A DNA stretch of 64,000 nt from Thelonectria olida (taxonomy: Eukaryota > Ascomycota > Sordariomycetes > Hypocreales > Nectriaceae): the NCBI GenBank assembly GCA_020736575.1, contig JAGPYM010000021.1, positions 248,001 through 312,000 on the forward strand. The letters run 5' to 3'. Every line of letters begins with the position of its first letter. The stretch's first letter is position 1. Under the pieces are notes generated by a model, which was not told where the DNA came from, ran no database searches, and was given only the letters and a program-made list of their open reading frames with translations. Shown one piece after another: positions 12,337-33,706 of this stretch. The position numbers were made by a program, and so were the translations under genes.

Positions 12337-13506
12337 CTAGTCCGATTCTTCGTCGCCACCAATTATGCGAAGATGCAATTGGGGTTGCGACTTGCAAGCT
12401 TCCAAAACGTCCCTTGAAACTTCACCCTCGTCTACCCTAACGATCAATTCCTTTAGATGTCGGGCCACCACGCTCACGCTCTCTATCGTGTTCACAAGGA
12501 GGTCTGTCACCTCCTCATCAGTACCAAGTTCGTTAAAGAACTCCAGAGTCTCCAGCTCTGGAGGTAGGCCAACCGAATGCAAACGTGGTCTTCCTGTTGT
12601 TCTACCATACAGCTGATGATCCCAATTCAGCCGCAGAGTCTTGAGGGCAGTAAAATCGCGTAGAGCAAGAGCTCTGGAGCTGCGCAAAGATGGTGAATCG
12701 ATTGTGATTGTTTCCAACGAATGACATGCGGATCTGAGAGCACCTATATAGTCTCTGATACTGTCCGAACTCTCTTCCAGTTGAGGCGAAGGTTCTTCAT
12801 CCTGGGTCATGACAAATTCCTTGAGAGCTTTTGAAAATATGAGGAGATCAGAGAGCGCATCGTCGTTGATATCGCATTCAATGAGATGCAGCTTGCTAAG
12901 AGCAGTCTCGTGTGGGCGTTCAATCACGTCGAAACCCCGATCATCTAGTTTGGCCCTCTTAATGACCAGCGTTTCAAGCGTAGGGTGGGCGAAAATGTAG
13001 ATGTTCTCTTGCAAGTCCCAATAACGGTCGTCTTCATCCTGGTAAAAGAGTGTGCATGACTTGAGACAAGCCAGGTCGAAGGGGCTATTGAAAAGGTGTC
13101 CCACGCTGTGCAGGAGCGTAACTGGCACGGCAATGTCCAGCGTCTCCAAGTTGGACATGCGCGAAATGGTCTGCGACAAGTTGTTGGATGGCAACGTTGT
13201 GTCGGCGATCAGACGCGAAAGAGTGGACGCGGGATAGGCAAGCTTGATATCTTGAATGGCCGACCCCCGTCGAGGACGACGGTTAAGAGACTCGCTGAAG
13301 ATTAGGTGCAGCTCCGGCGTCAAGAATTGGACGGTTTTATACAAGACAGCGTCGGCAAGTGAGTGGTAGCGCTTGTTGAGTCTCGAAACGCTGCAGAGGT
13401 CGTGTCCCGACAGCAGCCCAAAGATGAGCACGAGCAGCTTGTCGGGAAGACCAGCAAGCACATCCTTATGGTGATGGTGATGGAAAGCCCTAGGTGAAGA
13501 CGGCAT
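12337..13506 (-). CDS. F-box protein with leucine-rich repeat-like C-terminus
   Basis: A single-exon 389-aa protein starting at ATG 13504-13506. After a His-rich stretch (HHHHHK, residues 9-14) comes a typical F-box, LAGLPDKLLVLIFGLLSGHDLCSVSRLNKRYH split over residues 17-48, which would bind Skp1 in an SCF ubiquitin ligase. The remainder has degenerate leucine-rich repeats (SNLETLDI, PTLETLVIKRAKL, TALSKLHLIECDIND, TALKTLRLNW, ELETLEFF), which probably hold the substrate. It ends with an acidic tail, GGDEESD. Fungal genomes have many such proteins and the target cannot be predicted. It is intact, unlike its neighbours on both sides. Confidence 0.85.
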   Translation of the reverse strand: MPSSPRAFHHHHHKDVLAGLPDKLLVLIFGLLSGHDLCSVSRLNKRYHSLADAVLYKTVQFLTPELHLIFSESLNRRPRRGSAIQDIKLAYPASTLSRLIADTTLPSNNLSQTISRMSNLETLDIAVPVTLLHSVGHLFNSPFDLACLKSCTLFYQDEDDRYWDLQENIYIFAHPTLETLVIKRAKLDDRGFDVIERPHETALSKLHLIECDINDDALSDLLIFSKALKEFVMTQDEEPSPQLEESSDSIRDYIGALRSACHSLETITIDSPSLRSSRALALRDFTALKTLRLNWDHQLYGRTTGRPRLHSVGLPPELETLEFFNELGTDEEVTDLLVNTIESVSVVARHLKELIVRVDEGEVSRDVLEACKSQPQLHLRIIGGDEESD

Positions 13507-13529
13507 TGATAAATAAATGCAATGAAACT

Positions 13530-14600
13530 GTAGAGTTAATTGTAGTTGTTAGGATAGGCAGAATTACTAATAATCCTAGTGCGTATTGGATATCGTTGTA
13601 AAGGGATGGGAGATAGCGATAAGTCACATGACAAGGCCCAGTCCATCGCACAGCGCCACTCCCCCCTTTGTCAGCCTTATCACCGCGGGAATTGCCGCTC
13701 ACAGCTGGACCTTGGACTTGAAGGGCGCTTTCCAAAGTTGATCCCCAGAGACCAAAGACGGTTCGACCATTCTCAACGAGCGCTGGCCAGCTCACTTTGA
13801 AGATGTCTTGGGCGTAAATTGCCGGATCTTCGTCGATTTCCTCCCCGATAACCATGACCTGCCGATAGACTTGTTCGAGGATAGTACTGATTTTCTGGAC
13901 CACTCCCTTGCAGGTCAAAGATTGATCATTGCAGAAATAGCCGATGTTGATCGGGACTTGGAGCTCAGCCTTGCGGAGCTCGCTAGCGAATGCAGCATTG
14001 TTGAGTTTCGCAACGGCTATCTGGCCTACTCCACACGTAACAAGAGCTGCCTAAGAGTATTGCGCAGATACCGACTCTCGGTCGTCGCTCGAGTTTGCTG
14101 CCCTGAGCGCCGAAGCCCAATTATGCATGGACCGCCCCAGCTCGGCTGCGCTCAAGACGACTGTCTCAGCGCATGCTCGGGACTGGCGGAGATGTTGTGC
14201 GGCGTTTATATCTTTGACGTAGCTCAGAAGCCGTTGGAGACTAGGCTCGCTCCAGAAAGAAGCGTTGTTGCTGACCAGTTCGATATCAAACCACTCATCA
14301 ATTCAGATGGTTGCTCGGTGCTGGTAGATCTCTGGGGCCACCATGATCTGCGCTGATATGTCAACGTACTTGATATAGGCGCCAAAGTCGCCATCTTTCA
14401 GGTAACTGTTGGAAATCCTGATGATTTTGTCGTAGGCTGCTTCTGTAAGGATCAGCACCTCGGAGGGGATTGGCGTCTGGCGTGTCAAGCTTTTCAGCTA
14501 GTTTCGGAGCCGTGACTGTTGTAGTTTCCGCTGCTTGCAGGTGCTCGAGAATCTCGGTCAGAACAGTATTAAGAGGCTCCATGCGAGAGGCAGCTACCAT
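13530..14600 (-). pseudogene. Decayed gene, alpha-helical pore-forming-protein-like (N-terminal-type half)
   Basis: Minus-strand coding traces run from about 14600 down to about 13530 in shifting frames. One frame opens with a Met at 14598-14600, a second takes over near 14488, and stops interrupt each. The recoverable pieces are long amphipathic helices, including segments around YDKIIRISNSYLKDGDF, GVGQIAVAKLNNAAF and a helix with VQKISTILEQVYRQV. This pattern of long helices suggests the soluble bundle of alpha-pore-forming proteins of the XaxA/MakA type, homologues of which occur in ascomycetes, but that family call is tentative. Several frameshifts and at least two stop codons make it non-functional. 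A 182-codon plus-strand frame in the same place is a shadow of it. Confidence 0.45.
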
Positions 14601-15722: not shown

Positions 15723-16691
15723 TCACAGCTTCGTCGCCGGGAACCCCTTTTTCATCCGAAGAATCGACTGCTGACTGGCCGACGCAACCAGATTACCCTC
15801 TCCATCCCAAAGATTGCCTTCCGAAAATGTTCGTCCACTGCCCGCTCGAGACGTCGTTCTCTCTCTGATATGCCACGCATTCATATTCACCTCGGGTGTG
15901 AAGACACGCAGGGCAAAGTCCAAAGTTGAACAAGCCCCTACATCTTCAAACCACAGATGATTGTGCGTCAAGGGCAGAAAGGCAAGAGCTCCGTCCATGA
16001 GAAAAGCCAACGCCGACATGTTTTCGTTGGGCGATGTGAACGTTCCCTTTGCCTTCTGCCACTCGGCCGACGTCTTGGCAGTGATTGGAAGGGCGTCTTG
16101 GGTTGTTTGCACATTCTTCGCTACGCCCGAGAGATTCTGTCCCGAGACTCCATTGACGCAGTACCGCGTCTCGAAATAGTCATCTGACGCACCCAGGGTC
16201 GTTTTCAGCGTGTGGTACTGTTCTTCGGTGACTTTCCCACTGGCCTTGAGGGCGTCGGCATGGTCCTTGATGTCAGGACAATCATCGGGCTTGGGCCATG
16301 ATGATCGGGGAGGCGCTGAGTATTCCAGTGAGGATGGTTCTTGGACGTGAAAGTCTGCGATGAGCTCAAGACACACTCGGAACTTGTCGTCGCGTTGCTT
16401 CTGCTTTACTTGCACGCGACGCGTTGCAAAAGACCTCGTGTCGCGCGTGGTGGTCACGGTGCAATACAGCTTCTGATCCGTAGATGCAGGGCCGTGAAAG
16501 TGGCCGAGAAGTGAATACAGAGACAGGTTCGAGGGGACAGTGGAACATGCTGCGTTCACGGCAACGGCAACGGCGCATCCTCCGTAGGCGATGGGCATCG
16601 AGTTTCCCATGCGAATAGGGAGATGCTTGGAGACATACTCGCCGGGTTGGAGTTGCTCGATGGCGATTTGTTCAGAGAGCGTGAGTGACAT
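15723..16691 (-). CDS. Acyl-CoA thioesterase (double hot-dog, TesB/ACOT8-like)
   Basis: A single-exon, 322-aa protein starting at ATG 16689-16691. It has the two-hot-dog layout of acyl-CoA thioesterase II. The first domain contains YGGCAVAVAVNAA (about residues 36-48), LLGHFHGPASTDQKLYCTV and TRDTRSFATRRVQVKQ. The second contains ALAFLMDGALAFLPL, then WHIRERTTSRAGSGRTFSEG and NLVASASQQSILR. Members hydrolyse fatty acyl-CoA to free acid and CoA, often in peroxisomes, but no clear C-terminal SKL-type signal is present: the last residues are ATKL, which is at best a weak variant. It sits between decayed genes and shows no obvious functional link to its neighbours. Confidence 0.85.
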   Translation of the reverse strand: MSLTLSEQIAIEQLQPGEYVSKHLPIRMGNSMPIAYGGCAVAVAVNAACSTVPSNLSLYSLLGHFHGPASTDQKLYCTVTTTRDTRSFATRRVQVKQKQRDDKFRVCLELIADFHVQEPSSLEYSAPPRSSWPKPDDCPDIKDHADALKASGKVTEEQYHTLKTTLGASDDYFETRYCVNGVSGQNLSGVAKNVQTTQDALPITAKTSAEWQKAKGTFTSPNENMSALAFLMDGALAFLPLTHNHLWFEDVGACSTLDFALRVFTPEVNMNAWHIRERTTSRAGSGRTFSEGNLWDGEGNLVASASQQSILRMKKGFPATKL

Positions 16692-17200
16692 GTTGAGTTT
16701 ATTGAGATTTTATCCCCAGATCAGACGGAAGCACGTCACTTGTCTTTGAGAGGATGCAGGGGCACTCCATGGTTAATGTATCCATGCCAGCTGAACCGTG
16801 AATCTTTATCCCGCGGCATGTGGTAGGGGATCGCGACCGGGACTTTGTGGGTCCAACCTCGGTTCATCGAAGACGCCAAGTTCGTGACGCCATGGAGCTG
16901 GCGATTGTGATTGGTTTAATGATTAGGTATCTATCTATTAATTCGAGTAGTTCTTCGGGGTCATTTATAATTGACCCGAGAGTCGTAGAGTAGAGTAGAG
17001 ACACACAACTGGGTATGTGACACCATCTACAATAGCTCTCACGTAAGTATGTAGGTAGATCACGGCCTCAAGAATTTCGCATACTCGAGTAATGGAAACG
17101 AGCTAAAAGGATGTAATTACGGCGCTGCTGAGCTAATCATTGCCCATAACTAAGGACGGCCAACAAACGATTACCAACATGAAGCCTCTTCTTGAAACAT
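16692..17200. other. Intergenic region, thioesterase promoter side
   Basis: About 500 bases, AT-rich in the middle, with a short GTAGA tandem tract near 16985. No gene seen. Confidence 0.5.
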
Positions 17201-17238
17201 TGTGATCATCTTTCAACAATCCTTGCTCAAAATGAAGG

Positions 17239-18667
17239 ATGCAATTCGCCCTGATGCGCAGGCCGCGCGAGCCATGTATCAACGAGGATACCGAACGTGG
17301 TGCAATCTCTGGAAACACGCATCTGGCGACACGCGACGACAACACTGCCCAAAATCTTTGGCGCGGAACAAAATCACATGCCGATTCTTATGCTGGCTTG
17401 GGCGTATACTCTCTCCGCACGATGGGCAGAGCTCATTCATGCCGCGCATCTCTCACAGCCGGGGAGTCACCAAACCCACCAACCTACCACAAATGATAAG
17501 CCCCCCATTACAGTCCATATTGGCGACGTTGACGAGGATGCTGCTCACTGGTGGAGTGTCATTCTATCTGGCGGATGGCAGGCAACGATGCGCAATTCTA
17601 AGGGGGAGCTTCTTTATTCTCCATGGTCTATCAAGCTCATATCAGAGTAGTACTTTATCATCTCGGCAAGTGTCAAGTGAACAAGTTCAGCGCCAAGCCA
17701 TATTCCAGCTGCATCAACCATCACCCATTGTTATTTATCCGAGTATTGCCGCCTTCACGACATTGATGGCTAGAAGCAGGCAGCTCTCTCGGCCACCCTG
17801 CTGATCCTAGTCGCCGAGTACGACTATAGGCTAATTGAGCTCGCAATCCTCGAGTTGTCTCATCAATCAACCCGTGGAGAGAAAAGCCGCACAGAATCTC
17901 CGGCCATGATCGAGAGCACGCCTCGGATTGATAGACTTCTGAGGCTGAGTTCCAATCCAAGGGGTTTGAAGGAGCTCCTTACCAGCATCTTCTTCGAGCC
18001 TGGTGTAACGAGCAACATCTGCGGCATCTGGCTACGAGGCTCCTTTGCGTTTTTGAACACAATCAAGGACCCTCATGCCCGTTTACGGACTTTTATTCGG
18101 CGCGATCCAGAGCTCGGGGGTTTGTGGGTTGGCGCATTCATAACTGGAGCCCACCAGTGCCTACGAGATGCTCGAGGAGCTTCGTGGAAGATTGATCTCA
18201 ATGCAGCTGCCTGGACTGATATCTTTGTCTCTTTCATCCAGGAGCCAGTTCCTGTCCTGGCGTCCGAGGCCTGCGAAATGACTCGTGCTGACGAATCTCG
18301 ACTGCTATATCTTTGTAACGACAAGAACTACACGGTTCCGCCACTCTTTCCATTCGCGTCATTTGGTTCTACTACACTAGTTGACACTAATCTAGATGTC
18401 CGTGAGCATGCGCTATGCGGGAGTAATAATTGCCTTGGATATGCAGGCTTTACCTGGGTCTGCCCGGGCGGGACGACGATAGAGCAAAGCAAGCATGACC
18501 CGCCCTTAACTACAATCCGTCCAAAGTATGGTCAATTTTCACATTATGACGTTGATGTCGATATTGATGACTATGCTCCGATCCGAGGTGATGCTCGTTC
18601 TACTGTAGGGGGGATTCTTCATGGATGGATTTTGAAAACATCAACTCAAAGATCCAACTCGATGTAA
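17239..18667 (+). pseudogene. Conserved fungal protein of unknown function, disrupted by stops
   Basis: Frame 2 carries two long family-like stretches. The first is 17297-17650 (MPILMLAWAYTLSARWAEL, DEDAAHWWSVILSGGW, LYSPWSIKL); the second, from about 17705, contains YLSEYCRLHDIDG and LLILVAEYDYRL, then 17855-18667 with IFFEPGVTSNICGIWLRGSF, DLNAAAWTDIF and YTVPPLFPFASFGST. I associate this with a widespread ascomycete family lacking a named domain. The parts lie in one frame but are separated by TAG 17648-17650, a TGA near 17677 and TAG 17771-17773, the last inside conserved sequence (DIDG-stop-KQAAL) and readable as CAG to TAG. No GT..AG intron restores the region in phase. The N-terminus is also uncertain. 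It is probably a pseudogene in the decayed flank of the gasdermin locus. Confidence 0.6.
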
Positions 18668-19203
18668 AGGTAGGCCAAAGAGGAACGATGCTTGAATGGC
18701 GATGCGGATGAGACTATGGGTGCTACTGCTTCATTATGATCCGCTATGCTTGACCGCATAGACTTAGACAAAACCTGGAAACTTTTGACCTAGATTATGA
18801 GCGTAATGTAGACTTGTCAATTCTTATTCGTCTGACTTTTTAAATTGTTTTATGCAGTACTACGGAAAGTTCTCTTCGCAGATATCCTACCACACCACTC
18901 CACTCCATATCCAGTTCCATAAACCACCCCATCGATTTTGTGCATGGCTTAGGTGGCAATGCATATGCACAGCTGACCGGCTGAGCTGGGACAGTGTCAC
19001 ACGGAGGAAGCTCGTCCGGTCGCGATGACTAATGCCAGAACCGTGAAATTCCCTCAAAGGCTCATTATCATATCATCTAGTCATTTCCTTGTGTATTGAA
19101 CACATCAGCTTGGTCCGTAATTAACCCGCTCATTCGCCCAACAAACCGGTGCTACCACCCTCGTCTGTGTCATTCATTTTACAGTGACATTCTCGGGAGA
19201 TTG
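18668..19203. other. Region upstream of the CHAT protease gene
   Basis: About 530 bases. A TCATTCATTTTACAG acceptor-like sequence ends near 19183, followed directly in frame by the TPR coding sequence, so an upstream exon may exist. I found no convincing TPR exon before it. Confidence 0.4.
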
Positions 19204-21252
19204 ATGACTAAAGATAAAGCAATGGAAGATCTCGATGCTTTCGTTCAACAATGCCAAGAGGCCCTTGATATCACCCCAGAAACTCATCCTGACCGAGCAA
19301 GTCAACTTGAAAATCTCGCTGATGGATATCAGGCTAGATATATGGAGACAGGAGTAGTAAAAGAGCTGGAAACGGCCATTCAGCAGTACCACAAAGCCCT
19401 TGCTTCCGCCCCCGAAAACCATCCCGACCAAGTACCCCGATTTTATAAACTGGGAAACTCGTATCGTGCTAAATACCAACGGACAAAAGCAATTCCTGAT
19501 CTTGAGGCGGCGATTCGACATTACCAAAGAGCTCTCGATCTCACGCCAGACAACCATCCCGAGCGCACAAGGCGGCTTAGTGGGCTTAGTTATTTGCATC
19601 GTTACAGATACCACCGGGTTAAAGAAACGACGGATCTCGACGTGGCAATTCAACTATGCCAGCAGGCGCTTGATCATTCTCCATCCCCTCCAATGGATCG
19701 CCTACACTCAGCTCGGTCCTTACTTGAGCTATACGCTCATACCTTGAATTGGTTATCGGTACACGAAGTCGCCTCCACAGCCGTGTCTCTCATGCATTCA
19801 CATATCACCCGCGCTCTCGAGCATTCAGATAAGCAGAACGTGATTGATGAAGTTGGCAGCTTCGCGTCGGATGGAGCAGCAGCAGCTCTCAATGCGGGAA
19901 AGGAACCTTATGACGCAGTACGCCTTCTTGAACTTGGGCGCGGTATTATCACGAGTTCTTTAAACGACATCCAGGCGGACCAATCCGAAGTGGAGCGAGA
20001 ACGCCTTGATGCTACCCCCACTGAAGATGAACTCAAGTCTGCTGCAGTCCGTGGTCCCATCGTTATTCTTAATGTGAGTGACTACGACTGTCATGCATTG
20101 ATCGTCGAGAAGGGACAGCTTAGGGCCCTAGAGCTCCCGCGTCTAAAGAGTGAAGATGCTCATCTCCGCGCAAATTCATTCTACTATTCGTACCCCACCG
20201 AAGAGGCCTTCAACAGAGCTGAGTCGGAAGCTATCGATCCCGAGTTTCGAGACACGGAATTGCTGGAATGGCTTTGGGACACGATAGCAGAGCCAGTACT
20301 GGATGTCCTGGGGTTTACTAAGCCCCCCCGAGGTGATTGGCCTCGCGTGTGGTGGATTCCTACCGGACCTCTTACCAAGCTCCCGATCCATGCGGCAGGG
20401 CGTTATGCTCATGGATCTTCGGACACGGTCCTAGACCGGGTCATCTCATCCTATAGCTCCTCTATTAGGGCACTCCTTCATAATCGGCAGAATCGCCTCG
20501 AGGCCAACACGTTGCACGAATCGGAAAAGATGGTTCTGGTTGGAATGGAGAAGACGCCAGGCCAGAGTAATCTTCAATTTGCGTCGGAAGAGATCGAAGA
20601 GCTGGGAAAACTTGGGAACTCGATGCAGCTACAAGTAATCAGGCCTCAACCCTACCGAAAAGACATCCTCTCCGCTCTCAACAACTGCAAGATATTCCAT
20701 TTTGCTGGCCACGGACAAACGGATGAGTCGGATCCGTTGGAAAGCGCCTTGCTTCTAGAAGACGAGCCACTAACCATGAGGAGTCTTTTTCAACTGAACC
20801 TTGGTCGAAAGCCCTTCCTGGCCTACCTTTCGGCTTGTGGAACGGGACAAGTCAAGCACGAGGGGCTCATAGACGAGGGACTGCACCTCATCAACACGTA
20901 CCAGCTTGCCGGCTTCCAGCATGTTATCGGCACGCTGTGGAAGGTTGACGACAGGTCATGTGTAGACATGGCGGTCACGACCTATAAGTGGATACAAAAG
21001 CGAGGTTTGAGCGACGATTCTGTTAGTGAAGGTCTTCATCATGCGTGTAGGGAGCTTCGCACACAGTGGATCGCAGACAACATCGCAAGAAGTGCAGCTA
21101 AGCGCGGAACGCAGGTTGAAAGAAAGGATAGCTTTCAAGTTACGACAGAGCTAGGACAGTTCGGCCAAGTTGAAACAAGAGATGTCAGGGATGTCGAGGT
21201 GGTTGATGATACGCCGCTGCACTGGGTCCCTTACGTTCATTTCGGCATCTAG
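19204..21252 (+). CDS. TPR-CHAT cysteine protease
   Basis: The open frame extends to 19096 only through a TTG; the first ATG is 19204, giving 682 aa. Residues 1 to about 170 hold four TPR-like units of about 44 residues, each with a motif such as AIQQYHKALASAPENHPD or AIRHYQRALDLTPDNHPE. The C-terminal half is a CHAT domain, a caspase/separase-fold protease. The catalytic pair is visible as FHFAGHGQT (His503) and LSACGTG (Cys545), with ASEEIEEL and GFQHVIGTLWKVDD around them. TPR-CHAT proteins act as sensor proteases in fungi and bacteria, and CHAT domains are among the proteases found next to fungal gasdermin-like genes. Its stop lies 114 bp from the stop of the gasdermin-like gene, tail to tail. 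The N-terminus may lack an upstream exon. Confidence 0.88.
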   Translation: MTKDKAMEDLDAFVQQCQEALDITPETHPDRASQLENLADGYQARYMETGVVKELETAIQQYHKALASAPENHPDQVPRFYKLGNSYRAKYQRTKAIPDLEAAIRHYQRALDLTPDNHPERTRRLSGLSYLHRYRYHRVKETTDLDVAIQLCQQALDHSPSPPMDRLHSARSLLELYAHTLNWLSVHEVASTAVSLMHSHITRALEHSDKQNVIDEVGSFASDGAAAALNAGKEPYDAVRLLELGRGIITSSLNDIQADQSEVERERLDATPTEDELKSAAVRGPIVILNVSDYDCHALIVEKGQLRALELPRLKSEDAHLRANSFYYSYPTEEAFNRAESEAIDPEFRDTELLEWLWDTIAEPVLDVLGFTKPPRGDWPRVWWIPTGPLTKLPIHAAGRYAHGSSDTVLDRVISSYSSSIRALLHNRQNRLEANTLHESEKMVLVGMEKTPGQSNLQFASEEIEELGKLGNSMQLQVIRPQPYRKDILSALNNCKIFHFAGHGQTDESDPLESALLLEDEPLTMRSLFQLNLGRKPFLAYLSACGTGQVKHEGLIDEGLHLINTYQLAGFQHVIGTLWKVDDRSCVDMAVTTYKWIQKRGLSDDSVSEGLHHACRELRTQWIADNIARSAAKRGTQVERKDSFQVTTELGQFGQVETRDVRDVEVVDDTPLHWVPYVHFGI

Positions 21253-21366
21253 ACCGTTGTTTGGGATTTTGTGCTTCTAGACTGTGTGTAGTTGACCAGA
21301 AGTGCCAATTCTTGCTTCAAATGCGAAGAGCAATTATGTCCATTGTGACAGATGTATCTCTGCCGT

Positions 21367-22203
21367 TTAATCTTCCTCACCATCGCCATCGAATCCTTTC
21401 ATTCCAGCATCTGCTGCACTGACATCGACGCCATCAAAGTAGGTGAAACCTGCTACAAAGTCTTCCTCATCTTCTTCTTCCTCAGCTGCTGAATCCTCCT
21501 GGTCCGCCCTGTACAGGGCAGCCTTCACCTCGTCACGCTGCTTGAACTCGTCTCGTATTTTTGAGTACCGAAACCGACGTAGTCTGTATGCGAGGATGAC
21601 ATTCTCTACCGTATCTTGGTAAAGTGATCCCGACCCTCGATTTGCGTGGACATCGGCAGACACCTCCAATGCAGTCCCGGGAGGACCAACCGCGATGCCT
21701 GCACCGCCTCCTTTGTCCTTGGATCCGATAGCTGTCCGCGACACTTTGCTGGCGACGGCTACCCCAACGACCATGTAAACCTTTGCGTTGTAGCCAGACT
21801 GGCGCACATAGTCGTCGACCTTCTTAGCTCGTAATGCTCTATTTACATAGTCGTCCGGTGGGATAAAGTGCTGGGCCCGAACGTTTGCTGCGTTGATCAA
21901 ATAGGAAACGCTCTTGGCCCTGTTCGCGTCAAGAGACGGTCCAGCACCTACGATGGAGGCGAGGACGGAAGATAGTCCAAGGCCGAAGCTAAAGCCAGCG
22001 TTCGATGCCTTGACGATGCTTTTGGTGATCTGTTCTCGTTCTTCGTCGATGACTGAAGGGTCGATTTTCGTGACCGTGTGTCGATTCAAAATGTCCATCG
22101 GTTCATTAGGGCGTTTGAGAATGCTACCAAGCACTAGGAAGTCTGGTGGGAGAGATTCGTCGGGAACAATCCAACATTTCTTAGATTGCGGATTGAACGT
22201 CAT
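21367..22203 (-). CDS. Gasdermin-like pore-forming protein (RCD-1/HET-Q1 type)
   Basis: A single-exon, 278-aa protein starting at ATG 22201-22203. The pattern matches fungal gasdermin-like proteins: an N-terminal LPPDFLVLGSILKRP (residues 18-32), a conserved FIPPDDYV (113-120), a strand KVYMVVGVAVA (141-151), a Gly-rich hairpin (164-177) and a strand VENVILAYRLRRFRY (199-213). Members insert into membranes and kill the cell after a short C-terminal part is removed by a protease. Here residues 234-248 form a very acidic linker (DQEDSAAEEEEDEED) followed by a 30-residue tail, a plausible cleavage region and inhibitory tail. It is divergent from an ankyrin-S8 protease and convergent with a CHAT protease. 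Identification rests on pattern recognition, strengthened by the neighbours; no frame damage is seen. Confidence 0.78.
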   Translation of the reverse strand: MTFNPQSKKCWIVPDESLPPDFLVLGSILKRPNEPMDILNRHTVTKIDPSVIDEEREQITKSIVKASNAGFSFGLGLSSVLASIVGAGPSLDANRAKSVSYLINAANVRAQHFIPPDDYVNRALRAKKVDDYVRQSGYNAKVYMVVGVAVASKVSRTAIGSKDKGGGAGIAVGPPGTALEVSADVHANRGSGSLYQDTVENVILAYRLRRFRYSKIRDEFKQRDEVKAALYRADQEDSAAEEEEDEEDFVAGFTYFDGVDVSAADAGMKGFDGDGEED

Positions 22204-22639
22204 TTTTTTCGAATTAATAGCTACAGGTCCAAAGATGATCTGTCAGCCTTTCTCGGGCATAGGACTATATGTTGGAAATGTGTAATAATTAGTTAGCAAG
22301 AGCCCGCGGCGTCAAGTCCTCGAACGTCGAACTTGGCAAGCAGAGCGGGATCCAACGTCGACGTTCGCAAATGCAGGTTGATGTCATGCGACTGCACCTT
22401 TGCGAGGATCATGTGCTTACAAGACGGATTCTACGTCAGTGGCTCACCAGCTGGACGGGTCGTCATTGCTTTAGAGCCAATAGTCTAGAACTTCTCTGCC
22501 GATCACCAAAAGCTGCGCAGTGCAACATCTGCCGGCTCCTTCGTGCTGCTCTTTAGCGTCATTCGGTCCGTCGTCTCGGTCAGCCGATGACATACTTACT
22601 TCCTGGATCTCCGACGAGGCTTAATACCAACGTTGCGTC
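22204..22639. promoter_or_regulatory. Shared divergent promoter of the gasdermin-like and ankyrin-S8 genes
   Basis: 436 bp separate the two start codons. It contains a perfect 12-bp palindrome AACGTCGACGTT at 22354-22365 and a related GAACGTCGAAC at 22322-22332, about 30 bp apart. Such paired sites could co-regulate the pore former and its protease; no binding factor is known to me. Confidence 0.5.
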
Positions 22640-25128
22640 ATGAAGAGTTGTCCACCATATACACTCAAGTCAGACTCAAGTGTCAACATGCCCTCGCAAA
22701 GGACCGCGAGCTTCTTCCGCGAGAACAACCTCAATCCCGAGGTAGATCGAGCCGACCGAAGCGATGCGATTCATCTCGCGATTCTCAACCAGCGATTCCA
22801 AATTGTAGAGGAGCTGCTGGAGTTGTATCCTGACCCGGAGGATTGTCTCAACGCAAAAGCCCGAACCGCCCCGAACAAAGGACGCACTCCGCTGCACCAT
22901 GCCGCAAAGCTAGGTCGTACCATGATCGTGAAGAGGCTTCTAGCAAGAAATGCCGATGTCGATGCGACAAGCTTGAACAAGCGCACAGCTCTCATCTTTG
23001 CTACTGAAGCACAACACAGCGAGATTGTGAACTTGCTCCTCGACAAAGGAGCCAATGTCAACGCCCATTCGAACCGAAAGACGGACAAGCTGTGTGCACT
23101 TCATATCGCCGCACGGCTGGAGTCGCTCGATATTATTCTGAATCTTCTCCGTTGCGGAGCAAATTTGACCCTGTGTACGGCAGATGGAGATACTCCTCTA
23201 CATATTGCTGTTAGAGAATGTCGCGAACCTGCAGCCGCTCTTCTTCTCTTTCATGGGGCATCTCCCATGGCCTTGAACAAGAATGGAGTCTCACCTCGCA
23301 GCCTCATTGACAATCTACCGAAAAGGGAGCGGAAGAAGTTTGAGCGCTTGTTTTATCGTGCCAGTGTCACCCCTGAAAGAAATCTGGGCGCTTTTCTTGA
23401 AAAACACGTCGTTCCAAACTCCCGGTTGGACATCTCCGCGGCTCTTCATTGGGCCATAGAGGAGAACCAAGAAGCGGTCGTTGCTTGTCTCCTACACATC
23501 GATTCGCACGCGGCGAACGCAATAGACTCTACTGGATTGTATCCGCTTCATCACGCAGCGAGTTCTGGGTTCCAACAGTGTGTGCTGGTCCTTCTTGAGA
23601 AGGGCGCAGACGTAGACAGCAAGACACGAGCAGCCTGGACACCTTTGATGCTGGCAGCTAAAATGGGTCATAAAAAGGCATGTCAGACTCTACTTGAACA
23701 TGATGCAAGCCGCACAGCAGAGAATGACGATGGAAATACTGCGTGGCAGGTTTCTGAATCAAGTGGTCACCCTCTTGCAATGCTACTCGAGGCATCCGCA
23801 GCTGCTGACGGGGATGCGGATGCTGAGGACACCCAGTGGCCAGAAGGTAAGCGATCCAGCCACACAACCGCTCCGACATGTTGTGACTTACCTTTCCAGG
23901 CGAGCTTTACTCAAGCAGCGACGGGGTTCATGGCATTTCGTCTATGAGCTCTCCTCAGAAGTTCGTAGAATCATCTCTTGTAGTTAGATGCTCACTAAAA
24001 GCTAACTGACGATCCAGCCCGAAGCATATCGAGGACTTCCTTGCTTCTCTCGAGCGTACTTGGTACAAGATTGGATGGACCGCCGAGGATGACGAGATTT
24101 CTTCCGACAGGAAGTGGCATGGACCAGTTAAAATCGCGGTCCTCGACACAGGGATTGACTTGGACCACGAATCATTTCTCGAGCCAGCCCAGAGACGGAC
24201 AAAGGCAGGGAAGAATGCGATGAATGTGGCGCCCGAATATCGAGAAAAGCCACAACGGGAACGGATTAAGACGTGCAAGAATTTTATCGGAGGTTCGAAA
24301 GAAGATGTCAGTGACCTTGACGGCCACGGGACCCATGTCGCCGGACTCATCATGTCCATTGCTCCACGTGCAGAGCTATACATTGCGAAAGTCGAATCTA
24401 AGTTTGCCGCGGGAGAGAGGTGTAACTGTCCCGTCGAGGAGGTAAGTTGCGAAGGGCTCAGAAGTGGGAATGGTTGGAGTAATAACTCACAATGCGTGTA
24501 CCAGGCAGTCAAATGGGCTACAGAACAAGCCGTCGACATCATTACCATGTCCTTGGGCTTCTCCCAAGAGAGATATGAGCTGGCCGAGGCTCTCAGAGAA
24601 GCCAACCATAAAGGCATCATTGTCTTTGCCGCGGCCTCCAACCACGGGAACCGTCGCCTCATCGCCTGGCCGGCACGCGACCGCGACTTGGCCATATGTG
24701 TGACATCGGGAGACGAATATAACCGCCCCTCAAAGTTTGCCCCGAGCCCCAATCGTAGCCTCCCCATGCTCATAACCCACGGTGAGAACGTCTACAGCCA
24801 GTGGCCGACGAGCTTGGGCGGCGGCTTTCGCAGGATGAGCGGTACTTCTGTGTCGACGCCGATTGCTGCGGGAATGGCGGCCATGATCCTCGCCTTTCTC
24901 AACAAGACTAACGAGTGGGACGAGAAGAAGAAGCGGGAGTGGCTTGACTGGTCAAAGGAAAGGAGCATACGGAGTACGGCAGGCATGAGGCGGGTATTGG
25001 AGCGCATGTGCCGGAACAGTGAAAGACTGGTTGTTTTGTCGGCTGAGCTGATGTGGGAGCAGAATCCCAAGTTTCTTGATCTTCAGGTCCTCTCTAATCT
25101 GGGGATTTATGAGGCTGATGATAGATGA
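22640..25128 (+). CDS. Ankyrin-repeat subtilisin-like (S8) serine protease, four exons
   Basis: The exons are 22640-23846, 23900-23960, 24018-24441 and 24505-25128, giving 771 aa in phase. The introns (53, 57 and 63 nt) have good acceptors; the second donor, GTTCGT, is weaker and the third is stop-free. Residues about 40-395 hold ankyrin repeats (GRTPLHHAAKLGRTMIVKRL, DGDTPLHIAVREC, GLYPLHHAASSGF, AWTPLMLAAKMG). Residues about 455-735 are a subtilase with a full triad: Asp466 in AVLDTGID, His526 in DGHGTHVAG, Ser679 in SGTSVSTP, and oxyanion Asn610 in AAASNHG. There is no signal peptide or propeptide, so it should act inside the cell. The repeat-plus-protease plan and the divergent gasdermin-like gene suggest a sensor that cleaves the pore former. 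An alternative start is ATG 22688. Confidence 0.9.
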
Positions 25129-27113
25129 TTTGAATATGAAGCACAACAACTTGGTAGAATTTCCAATGCATTCTACTGTCATCTTCTCCAGCCATCTACT
25201 TTTCCACACCCGCCCAATGCAGTAAACGATCATGCTGCTCCCATTCTCGCCGAATGCAGCTGGGCTGTGAAACTCTACCCTACAAACAAGACATGTCTCA
25301 GGGTGCCGTCTTTGACGGACGTCCCTAAAGTAACTAGTACAATCTCTGAAGAGTTACTGACGATCACCCATAATTCAAATTCAGATTGAAACTTGTTGTT
25401 AAACGACACAATTTGCGTTAGACATATTCCGAAACCGATGAGTCACTATTCACACCTTGATAATGGCCAACTTGGACAAGCTCTGAAAGTACTATCAAGA
25501 AGTGGTCAAGCGACTGCACGATCTCGGGCAGTCGGGTTCCAGGCATTTATCGAGTCAGCCCATCATCACGTCGTAACTGCCTCCTTCTGTCTCGCTTCAC
25601 GGATCCCGAGTCCCGAGCGATGTGTGACGGCGTTTGAGAATTCCGATTCCAATACCGATCGATCTTCTGTGCCTGATCTGCTCGACCATTGGCTTTTTGC
25701 CAGCAGTTGCTTCACTGTAAGAACAAGAAGCGGAAATCCTCGTCGGAAGGGCAAATTGTCGACGCCACGGCGGACTTTTGGCGATGCAGCGGAGCGGGTG
25801 GAGGACGTTGTGATAGCCCAACGGACAGCGTCTATTGCATCCCTTATTTAAACTACAGTTCACGACGTCAAATGTTCCTCCGCGCGCCGCGTGGCCAGTC
25901 AATAGCGAAATGCACATGCATAGTCTCAAAGTGCGGTATAAGCTAATTGGTACCAAGACCCAATTTGGGGTTTGATGAAAACGGAGGAGGCGGAGTGTCT
26001 ATTCATCCGAATCCCCCACAGAAATGAGACCACAATGATAGGTGCGAATGAAGTATACAATTCGCGCCTTTGGAATGTGCTCGTGATCTGCAAGGGTCAG
26101 GTCACGCAGGAGCGACATGCATCAGCGTCGTAGTTGTCTTGAGGAATGGTGTTCATGTGTGATAAGCTGACAAGCTGACAGCCTTCGAAGGCTCGACAGC
26201 AGCCTAAAACGGAAAACTGCCATTCGCTGGGGAACGAGTTTGTGAGGGAATACCGAATCTGCAGCTGGGAATAAGAGTCGCAGAGAGAGGGAGCGGGTGG
26301 GGATCATGGGGAAAGGAGCAAATAAGGCAAACCACCTGGGAGTAGAACAAGGGTGAGTGAATGGAACAGGAATCCGCGGACAGCCGCTTATGTCCACCAC
26401 CTCAGAACGCGCGGGCTGACACGTTGAACAGGTATCAACTCTGACATATCCCCACCAAGACGAAAGAGAAGAAGAAAATAAGCTTCTTGGCGAATGATCA
26501 GGGTGACAGACAACAGCCCTTCTTAAAGTCTTGTACAACTTTGGCCTAGTTGCCAATGCCCTCACCCCCGCGGAGGCCCGATTCTAGCATGGCCGGTGCC
26601 CGCGGGCCCGATGTGGACATTCTCCAGGCTGAGAAGCTGATCCGACTCCGTTGGCATCGGCTCATTCAAGGCAGGCTCCGTTGGTTTCGTGTCAGAGTGG
26701 AAGCCGAGACAGGACAGGCCTCCACTACCAAGCTACCACACCCACCTATGAATGAGTTCGTGTGCCCGCGGGAGACCGGGCATGTCTCTTTTGGGTATTG
26801 CACTGGGGAAACGTCCTTTTACTTCGTAATTCGTACAGGAAAAAAAAAAACGCGGTTCAGTATTCAAGAAACTCCGCATATGCGACACTTGCTTGGCGTG
26901 CAGGCGGAGTTTTCCTGGACCCCGAAATGGAGGAAAACGTCATCGGGAGACGATAATTATATTATCTTGAAAGATTCTGTTTAAGACAGATCTATTCCTC
27001 GATCATCTGGTCATTGTCTGAAGAAGTACAACCAAGGAAAGCAATCAATCCCAGAGCTTACACCTCAACCCTTGGAATCGTTCGACACTCCCGGCCAGGA
27101 GGCATTTGCGAAG
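25129..27113. other. Intergenic region before the ABC transporter
   Basis: About 2 kb with no supported gene; overlapping frames up to 152 codons have no motif. It probably carries the transporter promoter, with CCGCGG palindromes listed separately and an A-tract near 26840. Confidence 0.55.
26373..26772. promoter_or_regulatory. Cluster of CCGCGG palindromes including a PDRE-like TCCGCGGA
   Basis: TCCGCGGA at 26373-26380 fits the yeast pleiotropic drug response element TCCGYGGR. Three more CCGCGG cores follow at 26568-26573, within CCCGCGGG at 26599-26606, and within CCCGCGGG at 26765-26772. All lie 340-740 bp before the start of a PDR-type transporter, so a Zn2Cys6 drug-response regulator is plausible. 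Function is inferred. Confidence 0.4.
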
Positions 27114-30100
27114 ATGGCCTCCCCACGGGCCACCGATATCAACATTGCGACTGATGACTACTCAACATTTTCATCTTCAGCCACGGCCAATGGCAGAGAC
27201 AACGGTGGCGAGACCCCATCCCGACCAACCTCGATAGATGGTGAAATCGAAGACCTCGCACGGCGATTCTCGACAACCATCGGCGACGAGCTGCACGCCT
27301 TCAAGCCGCAGCCAGGAAGCCAATTGGACCCCAATTCTCCCCATTTCGACGCTCGGGAGTGGGTAAAGGCCCTCGTCAAGCTGAACGACTCGGATCCGAA
27401 CTCGGCGCCCTCGCGAAGTCTCGGCGTTGCCTTTCAGAATCTTAGTGTTCATGGATGGGGGACGGGTGGTGCCGAGTACCAAAAGGGCGTGTTGGATATG
27501 CCATTGGATGCTGTGAAGTCTCTGGCTGGTCTGGTTTTGCCGAATCGACGGAAGGAGAAGATTGAGATTCTTCACAACTTTGAGGGTGTCATTGAGGAGG
27601 GCGAATTGCTACTGGTTTTGGGTCCTCCCGGCGCAGGCTGTAGCACTCTGCTTAAGACGATTGCTGGCGAGACGGCTGGACTCAAGGTTGACGACCAATC
27701 GTACATGAACTTCAGAGGTGGGAACCCTTCGCTGCCTTTCAGCCACTTTCTTCGATCAGTACTGACAATGCACAGGAGTCGACACAAAACATGTCCGCGA
27801 TAGGTTCCGAGGCGACGTCCTCTACAACGCCGAAGTCGACACCCACATCCCTCATCTCACCGTCGGCGAAACCCTCTCGTTTGCCGCGAGAGCAACCTCT
27901 GTCCGCCACGTCCACGAAGGCGTCACGCGCGACCAGGCGGACACGATGATGCGGGACGTCATGATGGCCATTTTCGGCATCAGCCACACAATCGACACCC
28001 AGGTCGGAGACGACTTCGTGCGAGGCGTGAGCGGCGGAGAACGAAAGCGCGTGAGCATCGCCGAGGCCGCGCTCACGGGAGCGAAGCTGCAGTGCTGGGA
28101 CAATACGACGCGCGGATTGGACAGCGGGAACGCTGTCAACTTTTGCAAGACGTTGAGACTCCAGGCAGATCTTCTCGGTGTGGCCGGGGCCGTGGCTATC
28201 TATCAGGCGCCTCAGTCTGCCTATGATGTAAGCCATGCCTTGGGGAGCTCACAAGCAGACAACTAACATTCTGACAGCTCTTCGATCGTGTGACTGTCTT
28301 GTATGAAGGCCAACAGATTTTCTTTGGAAATATTAACGCGGCCAAGGGGTACTTTGAAGAGTTGGGCTTCGAGTGTAAGTCACCAACGCAGCCTCTCCAA
28401 GGGCGCCAACCTCACTAACAATTACAGGCCCTGACAGACAGACGACTCCCGACTTCTTGACCTCCATGACCAGTCCCCAAGAGCGTCGCGTCAAGCCCGG
28501 CTACGAGAACAAAGTCCCCCGAACCCCCGAGGAATTCGCCCAGCGATGGAAGTTCAGCGACCAGCGAAAAGAGCTCGTCGGCGAGCTCACCACGTACGAG
28601 GCCAAGCACCCAGCCGAGGAGCGTCTAGGCTCGTACAAGGAGTCGCGCCAGGCCGAAAAGTCCGAGAGACAGCGCAAGGCGTCTCCGTATACGATTTCGT
28701 ATGCGCAACAAGTATCGCTCACCATTTGGCGCGCTTGGCGGAGGCTGCTTTCGGATCCAATGTTTACTATTGCGTCGCTGCTGTTTAACTTGATCATTTC
28801 ACTGGTACTTGGGAGCCTGTTTTATAACCTCAAGGACGGGTCGGCGACGTTTTATTCTCGTGGCGGTGTCATTTTCTTTTCGCTGCTGTTCAACGCTTTT
28901 GCTAGTCAGCTGGAGGTGAGACCGACGACGTTCCAAGCCAGGGCTCTTCGGGCCCTTGGGATCACTCATTAACATGTGCCATAGGTTTTGACGGTATACG
29001 CCGAGCGTCCTATTGTCGAAAAGCACAACCGCTATGCTCTCTATCATCAGTCAGCCCAGGCGATTGCAAGCTACCTCATCGACATCCCATACAAGACGGC
29101 CAACATGTTCACCTTCAACCTCGTTGTGTACTTCATGACGAACCTGCGACGAGACGCTGGCCACTTCTTCTTCTTCTGCTTGACCACGTATCTCACGACT
29201 CTAGTCATGTCTTGTATCTACCGAACACTGGCTTCCATCACGCGCACCTCGCACCAGGCCATGGTTCCGGCGTCGATCCTTACTATTGGCCTGATGGTTT
29301 TCACCGGCTTCACTATTCCAACTGACTACATGCTTGGCTGGTCTCGGTGGATGAACTACATTAACCCTCTTGCATATGCGTTTGAGGCCCTGATGGCTTC
29401 TGAATTTCACGACAGAGCCTTCCCTTGCACGCAGATGATCCCTCAAGGCCCGGGCTACGAGAACCTCCCTTCTGGATCCCAAATTTGCATGTCTGTGGGC
29501 GCAACGGCGGGATCTATGGTCGTCGATGGAGACAGGTACCTCAACCTGTCGTTCAAGTACTACAATGCCCACAAGTGGAGGTCAGTGATTATCGACTCCA
29601 TCCCTTGAGCCCATTCAAACTAACTCAACCCTAGAAACGTCGGCATTCTCTGCGGCTTCTTGGTCGCCTTCTTTTTCATGTACATGGTCTCGGCGGAGTT
29701 CTCAAAGCCTCCGGTAAGCAAGGGTGAAGTCCTCGTTTTTAAGAAGGGCAAGGGACCATCAAAGGGCTCTCGCGATATCGAGTCTCAGCAAAGCCGTCCT
29801 GTTGCTGCCCAGAACTCGCCCAGCACGCCTGGACAAGGCCAGAAGGGACTGTCTGCTGGTGCCTCTGTGTTTCACTGGGAGAACCTGTGCTATGATATTC
29901 AGATCAAGGGCAAGGATCGTCGACTCTTGGACCAGGTTGATGGTTGGGTGAAGCCTGGTGTATCGACTGCCCTCATGGTAAGCAACCTTGTACCAGTTGG
30001 TGAGATTTTACTGATGATTATTCTTAGGGTGTATCTGGGGCCGGTAAGACGACTCTTCTCGATGTTCTCGCAACTCGCGTTACAATGGGCATCGTCAGTG

Positions 30101-32090
30101 GCGACACTCGCATCGACGGCAGACACACCGACTCTTCCTTCCAACACCGCGTCGGCTACGTCCAGCAGCAAGACCTGCACCTCAACACCATGACTGTCCG
30201 CGAAGCCCTTGAGTTCAGCGCGCTTCTCCGACAGTCAGCAGAGATCCCCAAGGCAGAGAAGCTCAAGTACGTCGACGAGGTCATCGACATGCTCGACATG
30301 CAAGAGTACTCCGACGCCGTCATCGGTGTTCCCGGCGAGGGTCTGAATGTTGAGCAGCGCAAGCGCCTTACTATTGGCGTTGAGCTCGCAGCTCGTCCCC
30401 AGCTCTTGGTCTTCTTGGACGAACCTACCTCCGGTCTTGACTCTCAGACGTCCTGGGCTATTTGCGATTTGATTGAGAAGTTGACTGCCAGCGGCCAGGC
30501 GGTACTATGCACTATCCATCAACCTTCTGCTGTTCTGTTTCAACGATTTGACAGGCTGCTTCTTCTGGCTCCCGGTGGTAAGACGGTGTATTTTGGAGGT
30601 ATGTTATGCCAACAAGGCATGAGATTTCGCTGAGTGGTTTGAGCTAACAATCCATGGCAGACTTGGGTTCAGGCTCCAAGACGCTTCTTGAATACTTTCA
30701 ACGAAACGGCGCTGCACCTTGTCCCCCGAATGCCAACCCCGCTGAATACATGCTACAAATCATCAAGCCTCCCATCGACCAAGAAGCCTCTACCATCGAC
30801 TGGGCACAGGTTTGGAGAGCTTCTCCCGAGTATCAGGGCGTCAAGCAGGAACTTGCTCGTCTGAATTCTCTAGCCTCAACACTGCCCACAAGTGAGAGTC
30901 AGGATAACCTGGGAGCCGCCTCCCAGCACAAAGAATTCGTCGCCTCGTTCTGGACGCAGTTCTGGCAGGTCCTGTTCCGCACTTGGAAACATTTCTGGAG
31001 ATCGCCGACTTATATCTGGTCCAAGACTGTTCTCATTGTCCTTTCTGTAAGTCCTTTCTGGACATATGAACTTGGTCCAACGCTAATCATGGGTATTTGC
31101 AGTCGCTGTATATCGGGTTCAGCTTCTCGGCCGACAACACTCTTCAGGGATTGCAGAACCAGCTTTACGCCATCTTCATGTACCTTGTTCTTTTTGGAAA
31201 CGTCAACGAGCAGATCATGCCCATGTTTATTCCCCAACGCTCCTTGTACGAAGTCCGCGAGAGACCGTCCAAGATTTACCGCTGGACCAGTAAGTCTTTT
31301 CGCCCGCTGCTCTCAGTGGACGGTTACTGACTATCGCGTCTCAGCCTTTGTTTTGTCCAACATCCTCGTAGAAGCAGCCTGGAACACCATCATGGCAGGC
31401 CTGATGTACTTTTGTTGGTACTATCCCGTCGGCTTTGTGCAGAACACAACCTCGGATGACCAGGCTATCCGCGGCTTCTTGATTTTCCTATTTTTGTGGA
31501 TGTTCATGCTCTTTACGAGCACCTTTTCTCACTTTGTCATCACTTGGATCGAGATGCCCGAGGTCGCTGGTGTTTTGGCTACCTTGATGTGGATGCTTTG
31601 CATTGCTTTCTGCGGGTAAGTCTTCAAGAGCATCGCTTTAGTATGTAATGGTAATAACTAACAATCTCATAGTGTCGGTGTGCCCGCCGAGAGTATCCCC
31701 AACTTCTGGCAGTTCATGTACCGCGCCTCGCCGGCAACATATCTCATGGAAGGCCTCATGAGCGTGGCCGTATCCGGCTCCAAGGTCAAATGCGCCTCCA
31801 ACGAGCTGCTTTACGTCTCCCCGCCAGGCAACATGACGTGCGGCGACTTCTTGGGGCCCTTTGCTAAAGCCGTCAACGGGAATCTGCTTAACCCATCCGC
31901 TAGCGAAAATTGTGCTTATTGTGCGATGAGTACTACGGATAGGTTCTTGGAGAGATTCGACATCTACTACAGCCATCGATGGAGGGACTTTGGTCTGTTG
32001 TGGGCGTACATCGCCTTCAACGTTGCTGGCGCGCTGGCTCTGTACTGGGTTTTTAGAGTCCCCAAGGGCGCTGGTGTGAAGCGCAAGTGA
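27114..32090 (+). CDS. PDR-type ABC-G transporter, full length, 11 exons
   Basis: The start is ATG 27114 ([10 protein letters not shown]). Ten introns were placed: 27718-27775, 28228-28277, 28375-28427, 28916-28984, 29581-29634, 29978-30027, 30599-30660, 31047-31102, 31290-31344 and 31616-31672. They give 1470 aa in phase, normal for full-size ABC-G proteins. The order is NBD1-TMD1-NBD2-TMD2. NBD1 has the degenerate Walker [12 protein letters not shown] (Cys for Lys) and WDNTTRGLD of the PDR group, with signature [11 protein letters not shown]2 has the canonical [12 protein letters not shown] and [13 protein letters not shown], with signature LNVEQRKR. Such pumps sit in the plasma membrane and export drugs, plant compounds or the fungus's own metabolites. 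The substrate is unknown. It converges on the NmrA-like gene. Confidence 0.95.
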
Positions 32091-32271: not shown

Positions 32272-33261
32272 TCAAACCTTGACCACTTCGTTCTTCAGCA
32301 AAGCCTCCTTCCCCTTGGCCTCCAAGAACTCTTGGTAACTCTCTGTATTAACTTTGGTCTTCAGCTGGTCGGGTGTAATCACGTCTAGTCCAGCGGCGTA
32401 GCTGAACTCGGCCAGGAACCCGGCAGCATCGAGATACTCGAGCGGGATCTTGAGTATCTCATGCATGTCCTTGACACTCATCTCAATGAACTCGGCGTCT
32501 TCGCCCGTAACTCTAGACCACGCCTCGACAACGTCTCCAGCTGTGATGTCGGTATCATAGGCCAGAAGCTTCAATCCGGGCTCCTCGTCTTCAATGAGCG
32601 CGCGGACATACAACCCAACCGAGTTGTTCGCATCGATGATGAGAAGCTGCGTCTTCTTGGGACCCGGAAGAACGAGTGTGAACTTTCCAGTCTTAAGATC
32701 ACGCTGAGGGAACAAAAACAAGTTGTTGTTGTAGATTCCGACGTAGATAAAGGATGTCTTCTTGGCCAGCTCAGTGAGATCCGACTCAATGTAATTGACT
32801 GCTGCGGCCTTGGACTCAAAGTGCTGTGCATGAGAGTATTTGCCCTTCGAGTACGTCTTCAACGGCGTCAGAGCAGAGTAGATGTATCGCTCAAGAGTCG
32901 AGACGTTCGATGCGGCAATGGCGGCGTTCTTTGCGTTTTGCAACTCGGTATCGTAGGCGATTTTGCCCGCAGTCTCGGTGTCCTTGCCAGCGGCCACGAG
33001 GCTATGATACTCTTCCCAGAAATCAGTGTTGACGAAGATGGCAGCAGCGCCTTCAAAGGCGCGAGCAAGAGACTCCGGGTCAGAGAGGTCGGCTTGGACG
33101 ACTTCGGAGCCGAGAGATGCGAGTTCTTTGGCTTTGTCCGAGGACGGTGAACGGGTGATGGAGCGGACGGTCCAGCCAGGAAGAGTGAGGAAAGTCTTGA
33201 CGACTGAGGAGCCTTGGGCGCCCGTTGCGCCGACAACTGCGATGATCTTGGAGGAGAACAT
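32272..33261 (-). CDS. NmrA-like NAD(P)-binding protein
   Basis: A single-exon, 329-aa protein, ATG 33259-33261. It opens with a Rossmann fold (KIIAVVGATGAQGSSVV, the GxxGxxG at residues 11-17), then VVQADLSDPESLARAFEGA and the substrate-side segments SALTPLKTYSKG and FIYVGIYNNNL. This is the atypical short-chain dehydrogenase group that includes Aspergillus NmrA and human HSCARG, which usually act as redox-sensing regulators rather than enzymes; no YxxxK pair is evident. It is divergent from a bZIP-DUF3425 gene with 445 bp between starts. In Aspergillus NmrA binds a GATA factor to control nitrogen metabolite repression. Whether this copy does the same or is a pathway-specific paralogue cannot be told. 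Confidence 0.88.
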   Translation of the reverse strand: MFSSKIIAVVGATGAQGSSVVKTFLTLPGWTVRSITRSPSSDKAKELASLGSEVVQADLSDPESLARAFEGAAAIFVNTDFWEEYHSLVAAGKDTETAGKIAYDTELQNAKNAAIAASNVSTLERYIYSALTPLKTYSKGKYSHAQHFESKAAAVNYIESDLTELAKKTSFIYVGIYNNNLFLFPQRDLKTGKFTLVLPGPKKTQLLIIDANNSVGLYVRALIEDEEPGLKLLAYDTDITAGDVVEAWSRVTGEDAEFIEMSVKDMHEILKIPLEYLDAAGFLAEFSYAAGLDVITPDQLKTKVNTESYQEFLEAKGKEALLKNEVVKV

Positions 33262-33706
33262 TTTGAGAATGGGGGAATGAGTATATGTCTGGCTTTGCTG
33301 TGGTTTGTTTCGTTGCGGTATGGTATTACACGTTATGACGGGGCGTGGCTATTTTATACGCCTCCTGACCTAAGCATACGTGATACATTGAATGCCTCTG
33401 TCTCAAGCTCATGATGCGTTTGTTCACTCATTACTAATGAAGCCTCTGACTTACACCATCGCCCCCTCATGAAAGCATCTTTGGATTACTGCCTGTGCCC
33501 GCTCTGATTGGTCAATCACCCGTAAGCCAGCGACGCCATCCCGACACGGAAATAACTTGATAAGCCCAGTAAGCCAACTCCGCGATGGTTGGACGAGTTT
33601 GCCTCATCCATCATCAATCACCTGCACCCAGCATACCTAAATCGCGGCCCACAACGGAGAAAGAACGAATGAGTCCGGCCGTTGGAGTTATCATTCATCC
33701 GACACC

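Follow-up and report, generated by a model that had tools for sequence, protein, structure and literature searches.

Within a 64,000-nucleotide stretch of the genome of Thelonectria olida (Nectriaceae, Hypocreales; contig JAGPYM010000021.1, positions 248,001 to 312,000; hereafter, the window), a gene for a gasdermin-like protein lies between genes for two different proteases. Does one of these proteases act on the gasdermin, or do both? The three open reading frames (ORFs) encode a TPR-CHAT protease (19204-21252, + strand), the gasdermin-like protein (21367-22203, − strand), and an ankyrin-subtilase, or ANK-S8 protein (22640-25128, + strand). The TPR-CHAT and gasdermin genes are convergent and 114 bp apart, while the gasdermin and ANK-S8 genes are divergent and 436 bp apart. 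A preliminary description of the locus gave the same ORFs, strands, and spacings, and we also recovered the unbroken gasdermin-like frame of 278 aa and the intact catalytic sets that it reported (CHAT His503/Cys545; S8 Asp466/His526/Ser679, the latter in a spliced gene model). We consider it likely that the gasdermin and ANK-S8 genes form a two-gene, pyroptosis-like cell-death unit, and that the TPR-CHAT gene is its lineage-specific neighbor. This reading builds on the homology to gasdermins, the intact catalytic residues, the conservation of the pair (measured indirectly), and a conserved gasdermin tail. The features of the locus are as follows.

19204-21252, + strand: TPR-CHAT protease gene, 682 aa (Pfam CHAT, 1.2e-35; TPR_2, 3e-6)
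19993-20016, + strand: site of two linker deletions, residues 264-271 (alignment with relatives)
20257-21246, + strand: CHAT domain with His503 and Cys545 (best Pfam stretch, residues 352-681)
21421-21447, − strand: conserved gasdermin tail motif F-S/T-Y-F-[ED]-x-x-D-[VI], residues 253-261 (alignment)
21460-21507, − strand: variable acidic linker of the gasdermin, residues 233-248 (low alignment conservation)
21532-22182, − strand: predicted pore-forming domain, residues 8-224 (stretch aligning with the HET-Q1 pore chain, profile positions 10-224)
22204-22639, no strand: 436-bp intergenic stretch between gasdermin and ANK-S8 genes (from the gene coordinates), putatively a shared promoter
22640-23846, + strand: ANK-S8 exon 1, ankyrin-repeat region (Pfam Ank_2, 5.3e-48)
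23900-23960, + strand: ANK-S8 exon 2 (hand-chosen, frame kept; segment similar to protein P0152 by eye)
24018-24442, + strand: ANK-S8 exon 3, subtilase domain with Asp466 and His526 (Pfam Peptidase_S8 and motif positions)
24506-25128, + strand: ANK-S8 exon 4, subtilase domain with Ser679 (GTSVSTP motif at residue 677)

Because the 278-aa protein matched no Pfam family at E ≤ 1, its identity as a gasdermin rests on sequence profiles of the PDB and on a fold search. As a single query against the PDB, the protein retrieved the HET-Q1 pore chain 9uv9 (E = 2.8e-14, residues 8-223). A profile of 31 sequences, comprising the window protein and 30 relatives with 41-61% identity, matched the same chain with E = 8.4e-23, as well as RCD-1-2 (8jyz, E = 1.7e-8) and RCD-1-1 (E = 3e-4). 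The AlphaFold2 model of the protein is weak (mean predicted local distance difference test [pLDDT] of 56.4, predicted template modeling score of 0.57). In a Foldseek search of the PDB with this model, the top 23 matches are gasdermins without exception, of fungal, bacterial, and Trichoplax origin and including gasdermin D; the best of them, 8jyz_B, has an E value of 3.6e-6, but a template modeling score of only 0.40 at a model pLDDT of 56. Profile search (HET-Q1, RCD-1) and structure prediction both match gasdermins, in agreement with the preliminary assignment, and we regard the identification of the protein as a fungal gasdermin as settled by its sequence matches, with the model as supporting evidence only.

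The C-terminal end of the gasdermin combines a variable and a conserved segment. In the acidic linker, the mean frequency of the majority residue is 0.40, versus 0.72-0.77 in blocks of residues 1-215. All 31 aligned gasdermins have such a linker followed by an F-S-Y-F-[ED]-like tail or a close variant of it, as judged by a search pattern that is slightly looser than the motif listed above and was written after the alignment had been seen. Residues F256, D260, G270, and F271 are invariant in the 31-sequence alignment. Five paralogous gasdermin frames of the T. olida genome (on contigs C115, C9, C94, C24, and C155) also have acidic tails, and none of the five has the motif. Together, the linker and the conserved tail are roughly of the size expected for a short C-terminal inhibitory tail. 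In Podospora anserina, the S8 protease HET-Q2 activates HET-Q1 and reportedly cuts it at F238, with a loss of about 40 residues (excerpts of PMC12881547 and PMC10989679). By analogy with this reported cut in HET-Q1, we predict that the conserved aromatic motif is a likely cut site or auto-inhibitory element, and the tail is directly testable as a cut site.

The four ANK-S8 exons listed above were chosen by hand, and their spliced product is an in-frame protein of 771 aa. When the frame is read unspliced, the Peptidase_S8 Pfam match (5.7e-26) spans 24127-24930. With its repeat region and its S8 domain, in which Asp, His, and Ser are all intact, the protein has the domain content of a HET-Q2-like (Q2L) sensor-protease, and its gene, 436 bp from that of the gasdermin, shows the corresponding genomic clustering. 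Using the subtilase part as a query, we obtained 459 relatives, of which the best 120 were listed; among these, 18 are close relatives at 52-64% identity, and the next has 39%. As an indirect measure of synteny, we compared the lengths of the longest contigs given for the listed proteins, each of which represents a 90% identity cluster. Eight of the 18 close relatives match one of the 30 gasdermin relatives in exact longest-contig size (Fusarium sp. MPI-SDFR-AT-0072, Stachybotrys elegans, Conoideocrella luteorostrata, Purpureocillium lavendulum, Fusarium torreyae, Moelleriella libera, F. austroafricanum, and F. lateritium), and locus tags are consecutive in 3 of these 8 pairs (QQS21_007927/007928, NW762_003432/003433, and ACHAP5_006279/006280). 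Trees of the two genes over nine pairs agree except for the placement of Stachybotrys (distance correlation r = 0.93). Sequence comparison supports the gasdermin and ANK-S8 genes as an old, conserved pair of the Hypocreales, and the ankyrin-subtilase held up, by the indirect measure, as a conserved gasdermin neighbor in this group. Fungal gasdermin genes are described as undergoing birth-and-death turnover (in the excerpted text of PMC10197012), and against this background the recurrence of the pair in Fusarium, Purpureocillium, Stachybotrys, Conoideocrella, and Moelleriella seems unusual.

Both members of the pair appear to have changed faster in T. olida than in the sister sequence, the sister relation being taken from the two gene trees. 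With four of the five outgroups, unique changes in the T. olida gasdermin number roughly double those in the sister sequence (e.g., 54 versus 24), the difference not being significant with Conoideocrella as the outgroup (35 versus 24, P = 0.19), and the T. olida ANK-S8 has 1.6-2.4 times as many with all five outgroups. This comparison, confined to the two genes, is only suggestive: the rate difference could reflect altered constraint after the arrival of the CHAT gene, or merely a fast lineage.

We propose that the ANK-S8 protein would serve as an intracellular sensor-protease, whose ankyrin part would recognize a cue. Upon recognition, the S8 domain would cleave the gasdermin within its acidic C-terminal tail, probably at the F-S-Y-F-[ED] motif or close to it, and the freed pore-forming domain would form oligomers in the plasma membrane, with the death of the cell as the result. 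The adjacent TPR-CHAT protein would be a lineage-specific neighbor out of a large fungal family. The cleavage, the cut site, the sensor role, the cell death, and the dispensability of the CHAT protein are all steps that we infer.

The TPR-CHAT gene itself has no stop or frameshift over its 682 codons, and its product, with intact His/Cys, has the domain content of a CHAT activator. FAGHG occurs in 115 and SACGTG in 112 of 120 aligned CHAT rows, and the window protein has both. At E ≤ 1e-10, we found 1713 related proteins, of which the best 120 were listed (119 besides the protein itself). The neighborhood with the gasdermin pair shows no sign of conservation among them: by longest-contig size, none of these 119 relatives matches any of the 30 gasdermin or 18 ANK-S8 relatives, and the conserved triplet for which the preliminary description had proposed a synteny check failed to appear. 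A CHAT match from Fusarium falciforme has 61% identity over 86% of the query, and this species is absent from the gasdermin list; Clonostachys byssicola is found in both lists, on contigs of differing sizes. The best relatives that cover the full protein are about 50% identical to it.

The window protein further stands out by a feature absent from the preliminary description, its TPR-to-CHAT linker, which has 24 aa versus 67-135 aa in 110 of the 119 relatives, counting those with residues before the segment (the remaining 9 models begin inside it). Gaps after residues 264 and 271 drop 49 columns, each present in 90% or more of 53 aligned relatives, and no relative lacks more than 6 of those 49. 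Three relatives miss more conserved columns than the window protein does, mostly in the N-terminal TPR part and not in the linker (71 of 71, 71 of 72, and 71 of 80 missed columns lie before residue 200). The deposited T. olida model of the protein (P0032, 659 aa) is identical to ours minus 23 further residues. Part of the omitted stretch has similar coding sequence in relatives, so its omission from an uninterrupted frame is probably a model error.

DNA to the left of the TPR-CHAT gene (17122-18720) has a copy, in pieces and with 76-80% identity, at G000:C133:1246698-1248644, a dispersed duplication; the ORF at 17774-18667 within it has no Pfam match at E ≤ 1. No second copy of 21100-22700 was found in the genome, and no repeats of at least 20 bases were found within 16000-26500.

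We searched the genome (52.5 Mb, 165 contigs) with three gasdermins, and selected stretches with the profile, a design that may miss divergent gasdermins elsewhere. Nine gasdermin loci are supported, including that of the window; some are fragments. An additional candidate at C1:1443575 was dropped, being absent from the local profile matches at E ≤ 10 and charged and of low complexity by eye. An S8 match lies within 10 kb at eight of the nine loci (seven from the genome-wide list, and that on C94 from a local ORF with a Pfam S8 score of 26.6 bits), the sole locus without one being a gasdermin-like fragment at G000:C57:273805-276676 that adjoins a HET-domain gene. A CHAT gene lies within 10 kb at two of the nine loci, that of the window and that on C115, both of which also have an S8 gene; under random placement, 0.12 such loci are expected, and the chance of two or more is 0.006 (binomial; 0.008 for ten loci). 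At the C115 locus (G000:C115:87015-97088), the gasdermin is followed by an S8 gene, one more ORF, and a TPR-CHAT gene that is 41% identical to the one in the window; this gene starts 5.8 kb, and its CHAT domain lies 8.2 kb, from the gasdermin. The S8 neighbors at C115 and C9 have, in place of ankyrins, an upstream same-strand ORF with DUF7580, which probably forms one gene with the S8 part. At G000:C57:636326-654985, a gasdermin-like fragment is separated by about 7 kb from an S8 match, and about 8 kb beyond that match lie degraded CHAT pieces. The genome has 36 CHAT places at E ≤ 1e-5, and no gasdermin match was found in stretches of 9-10 kb around each of the four nearest relatives of the window CHAT gene. 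Beside a CHAT gene at C79:263663, an ANK-S8-like match looked by eye like ankyrin rather than S8 sequence.

Several observations weigh against a two-gene unit with a dispensable neighbor. The TPR-CHAT gene is only 114 bp from the gasdermin gene, and a gasdermin/TPR-CHAT pair has been reported from P. anserina (PMC12881547, excerpt); this spacing and this precedent argue against dismissing the TPR-CHAT gene. The gasdermin model is weak (pLDDT of 56), shared species history alone would yield much of the agreement between the gene trees, and the non-conservation of the CHAT gene is judged from only the best 120 of 1713 relatives. Ten of the 18 ANK-S8 relatives match no gasdermin relative under what is an indirect proxy, which is not evidence of separation because each listed protein represents a 90% cluster. 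The preliminary description had gone further and suggested that two sensor-proteases feed one gasdermin. Its gasdermin and ANK-S8 partner are upheld by our analysis, while the membership of the TPR-CHAT protein is so far unsupported, with 0 of 119 listed relatives matching the pair in contig size and a linker deletion unmatched in the relatives compared. If both proteases were involved, each would cut the gasdermin after a different cue, the CHAT protein having been recruited in the Thelonectria lineage, and we hold this to be unlikely. The tight convergent spacing argues for it, as do the open CHAT frame of 682 codons with both catalytic residues, in a protein whose best full-cover relatives are only about 50% identical, and the roughly twofold longer T. 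olida branches of the gasdermin and ANK-S8 trees. CHAT and S8 proteases are, moreover, both reported gasdermin partners (excerpts of PMC12881547 and PMC10197012). The presence of CHAT genes within 10 kb at two gasdermin loci out of nine (both with S8; binomial 0.006 under random placement), against 0.12 expected, leaves a local second trigger some small probability. However, there is no sign of a conserved CHAT neighbor among the best 120 of 1713 relatives, 49 linker positions have been lost, some of them kept in >90% of relatives, the 9-10 kb stretches around the closest CHAT relatives of the gene in the genome, four in number, contain no gasdermin match, and the 41% identical CHAT gene at C115 starts 5.8 kb away with an S8 gene and another ORF between. 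We deem it improbable that two cues converge on one gasdermin, one through a long-established ankyrin-subtilase and the other through a TPR-CHAT caspase relative of recent recruitment with a shortened linker. Were it so, the shortened linker could alter how the CHAT domain is restrained, and a CHAT protein that also acts on the gasdermin would make the locus an example from nature in which two immune sensors act through one executioner.

To the idea that the TPR-CHAT gene is decaying or has another substrate, with its position reflecting turnover among mobile immune-type genes, we give slightly less than an even chance. It concerns the CHAT gene only and is compatible with a gasdermin/ANK-S8 unit. 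The large family with its 36 CHAT places, the linker deletions, the dispersed copy of 17122-18720 at 76-80% identity to the left of the gene, and the degraded CHAT pieces near another gasdermin-S8 locus are in line with this idea, but 682 codons without stop or frameshift and intact catalytic motifs speak against it. Because the frame is open and the catalytic residues are intact, we did not adopt the view that the gene is a plain pseudogene. The locus could also serve allorecognition (heterokaryon incompatibility) in the manner of het-Q1/het-Q2, the protease and its gasdermin then being the polymorphic partners, given that these two genes are reported as idiomorphs at one locus (PMC12881547, excerpt). 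This is a rather remote prospect, as the protease and gasdermin genes of the window are neighbors within a single genome, which is the arrangement of most reported gasdermin clusters, and several genera share the pair. In view of the recurrence of the protease partner, we set aside the reading of the protein as an RCD-1-like gasdermin that needs no protease. The two-gene unit of gasdermin and ANK-S8 remains our preferred reading.

Other genes of the window encode an FAA hydrolase (4088-5608), an F-box protein (12337-13548), an acyl-CoA thioesterase (15723-16691), and an NmrA-like protein (32272-33348). To the right of the ANK-S8 gene are ORFs at 26985-30193, which appear to encode a PDR-type ABC transporter.

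Gene clusters of fungal gasdermins and Q2L proteases were reportedly surveyed by Clave et al. 2022, a study represented here through reviews. As far as the reviews describe those clusters, the locus in the window differs from them in that both kinds of protease flank one gasdermin. This exact triplet was not recognized in the literature searched, a search that did not extend to the survey itself. According to excerpts of three papers (PMC12881547, PMC10989679, and PMC10197012), some 80% of the gasdermin genes of fungi are clustered with protease genes (S8, about 60-63%; CHAT, 17-19%), the proteases often bear ANK, TPR, or WD40 repeats, and clusters of two or three genes are mentioned. Because gasdermin clusters with S8 or CHAT proteases have already been published, the window pair falls within a known kind and, going by those excerpts, adds one more of that sort.

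Among individual systems, as far as they are covered by the excerpted sources, the gasdermin resembles Neurospora crassa RCD-1 in sequence and fold match; however, RCD-1 reportedly acts by the coexistence of two alleles without cleavage (PMC12881547), whereas the window gasdermin has a conserved protease partner. A CHAT protease is reported at the hetB incompatibility locus of Aspergillus fumigatus (PMC11138114). In the two-gene cluster of P. anserina, a TPR-CHAT protein likewise stands beside a gasdermin, and the CHAT protease is reported to activate it (PMC12881547); in contrast, no listed relative of the window CHAT protein matches the gasdermin pair in contig size, and the window protein lacks a linker segment. 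The likeness to HET-Q1/HET-Q2 of P. anserina extends to a 278-aa gasdermin with a short C-terminal tail and to an S8 subtilase that may cleave it. Unlike HET-Q2, which has 388 aa (PMC10989679), the S8 protein of the window carries ankyrin repeats and has 771 aa, and whereas het-Q1 and het-Q2 are idiomorphs (PMC12881547), the two T. olida genes adjoin in one genome.

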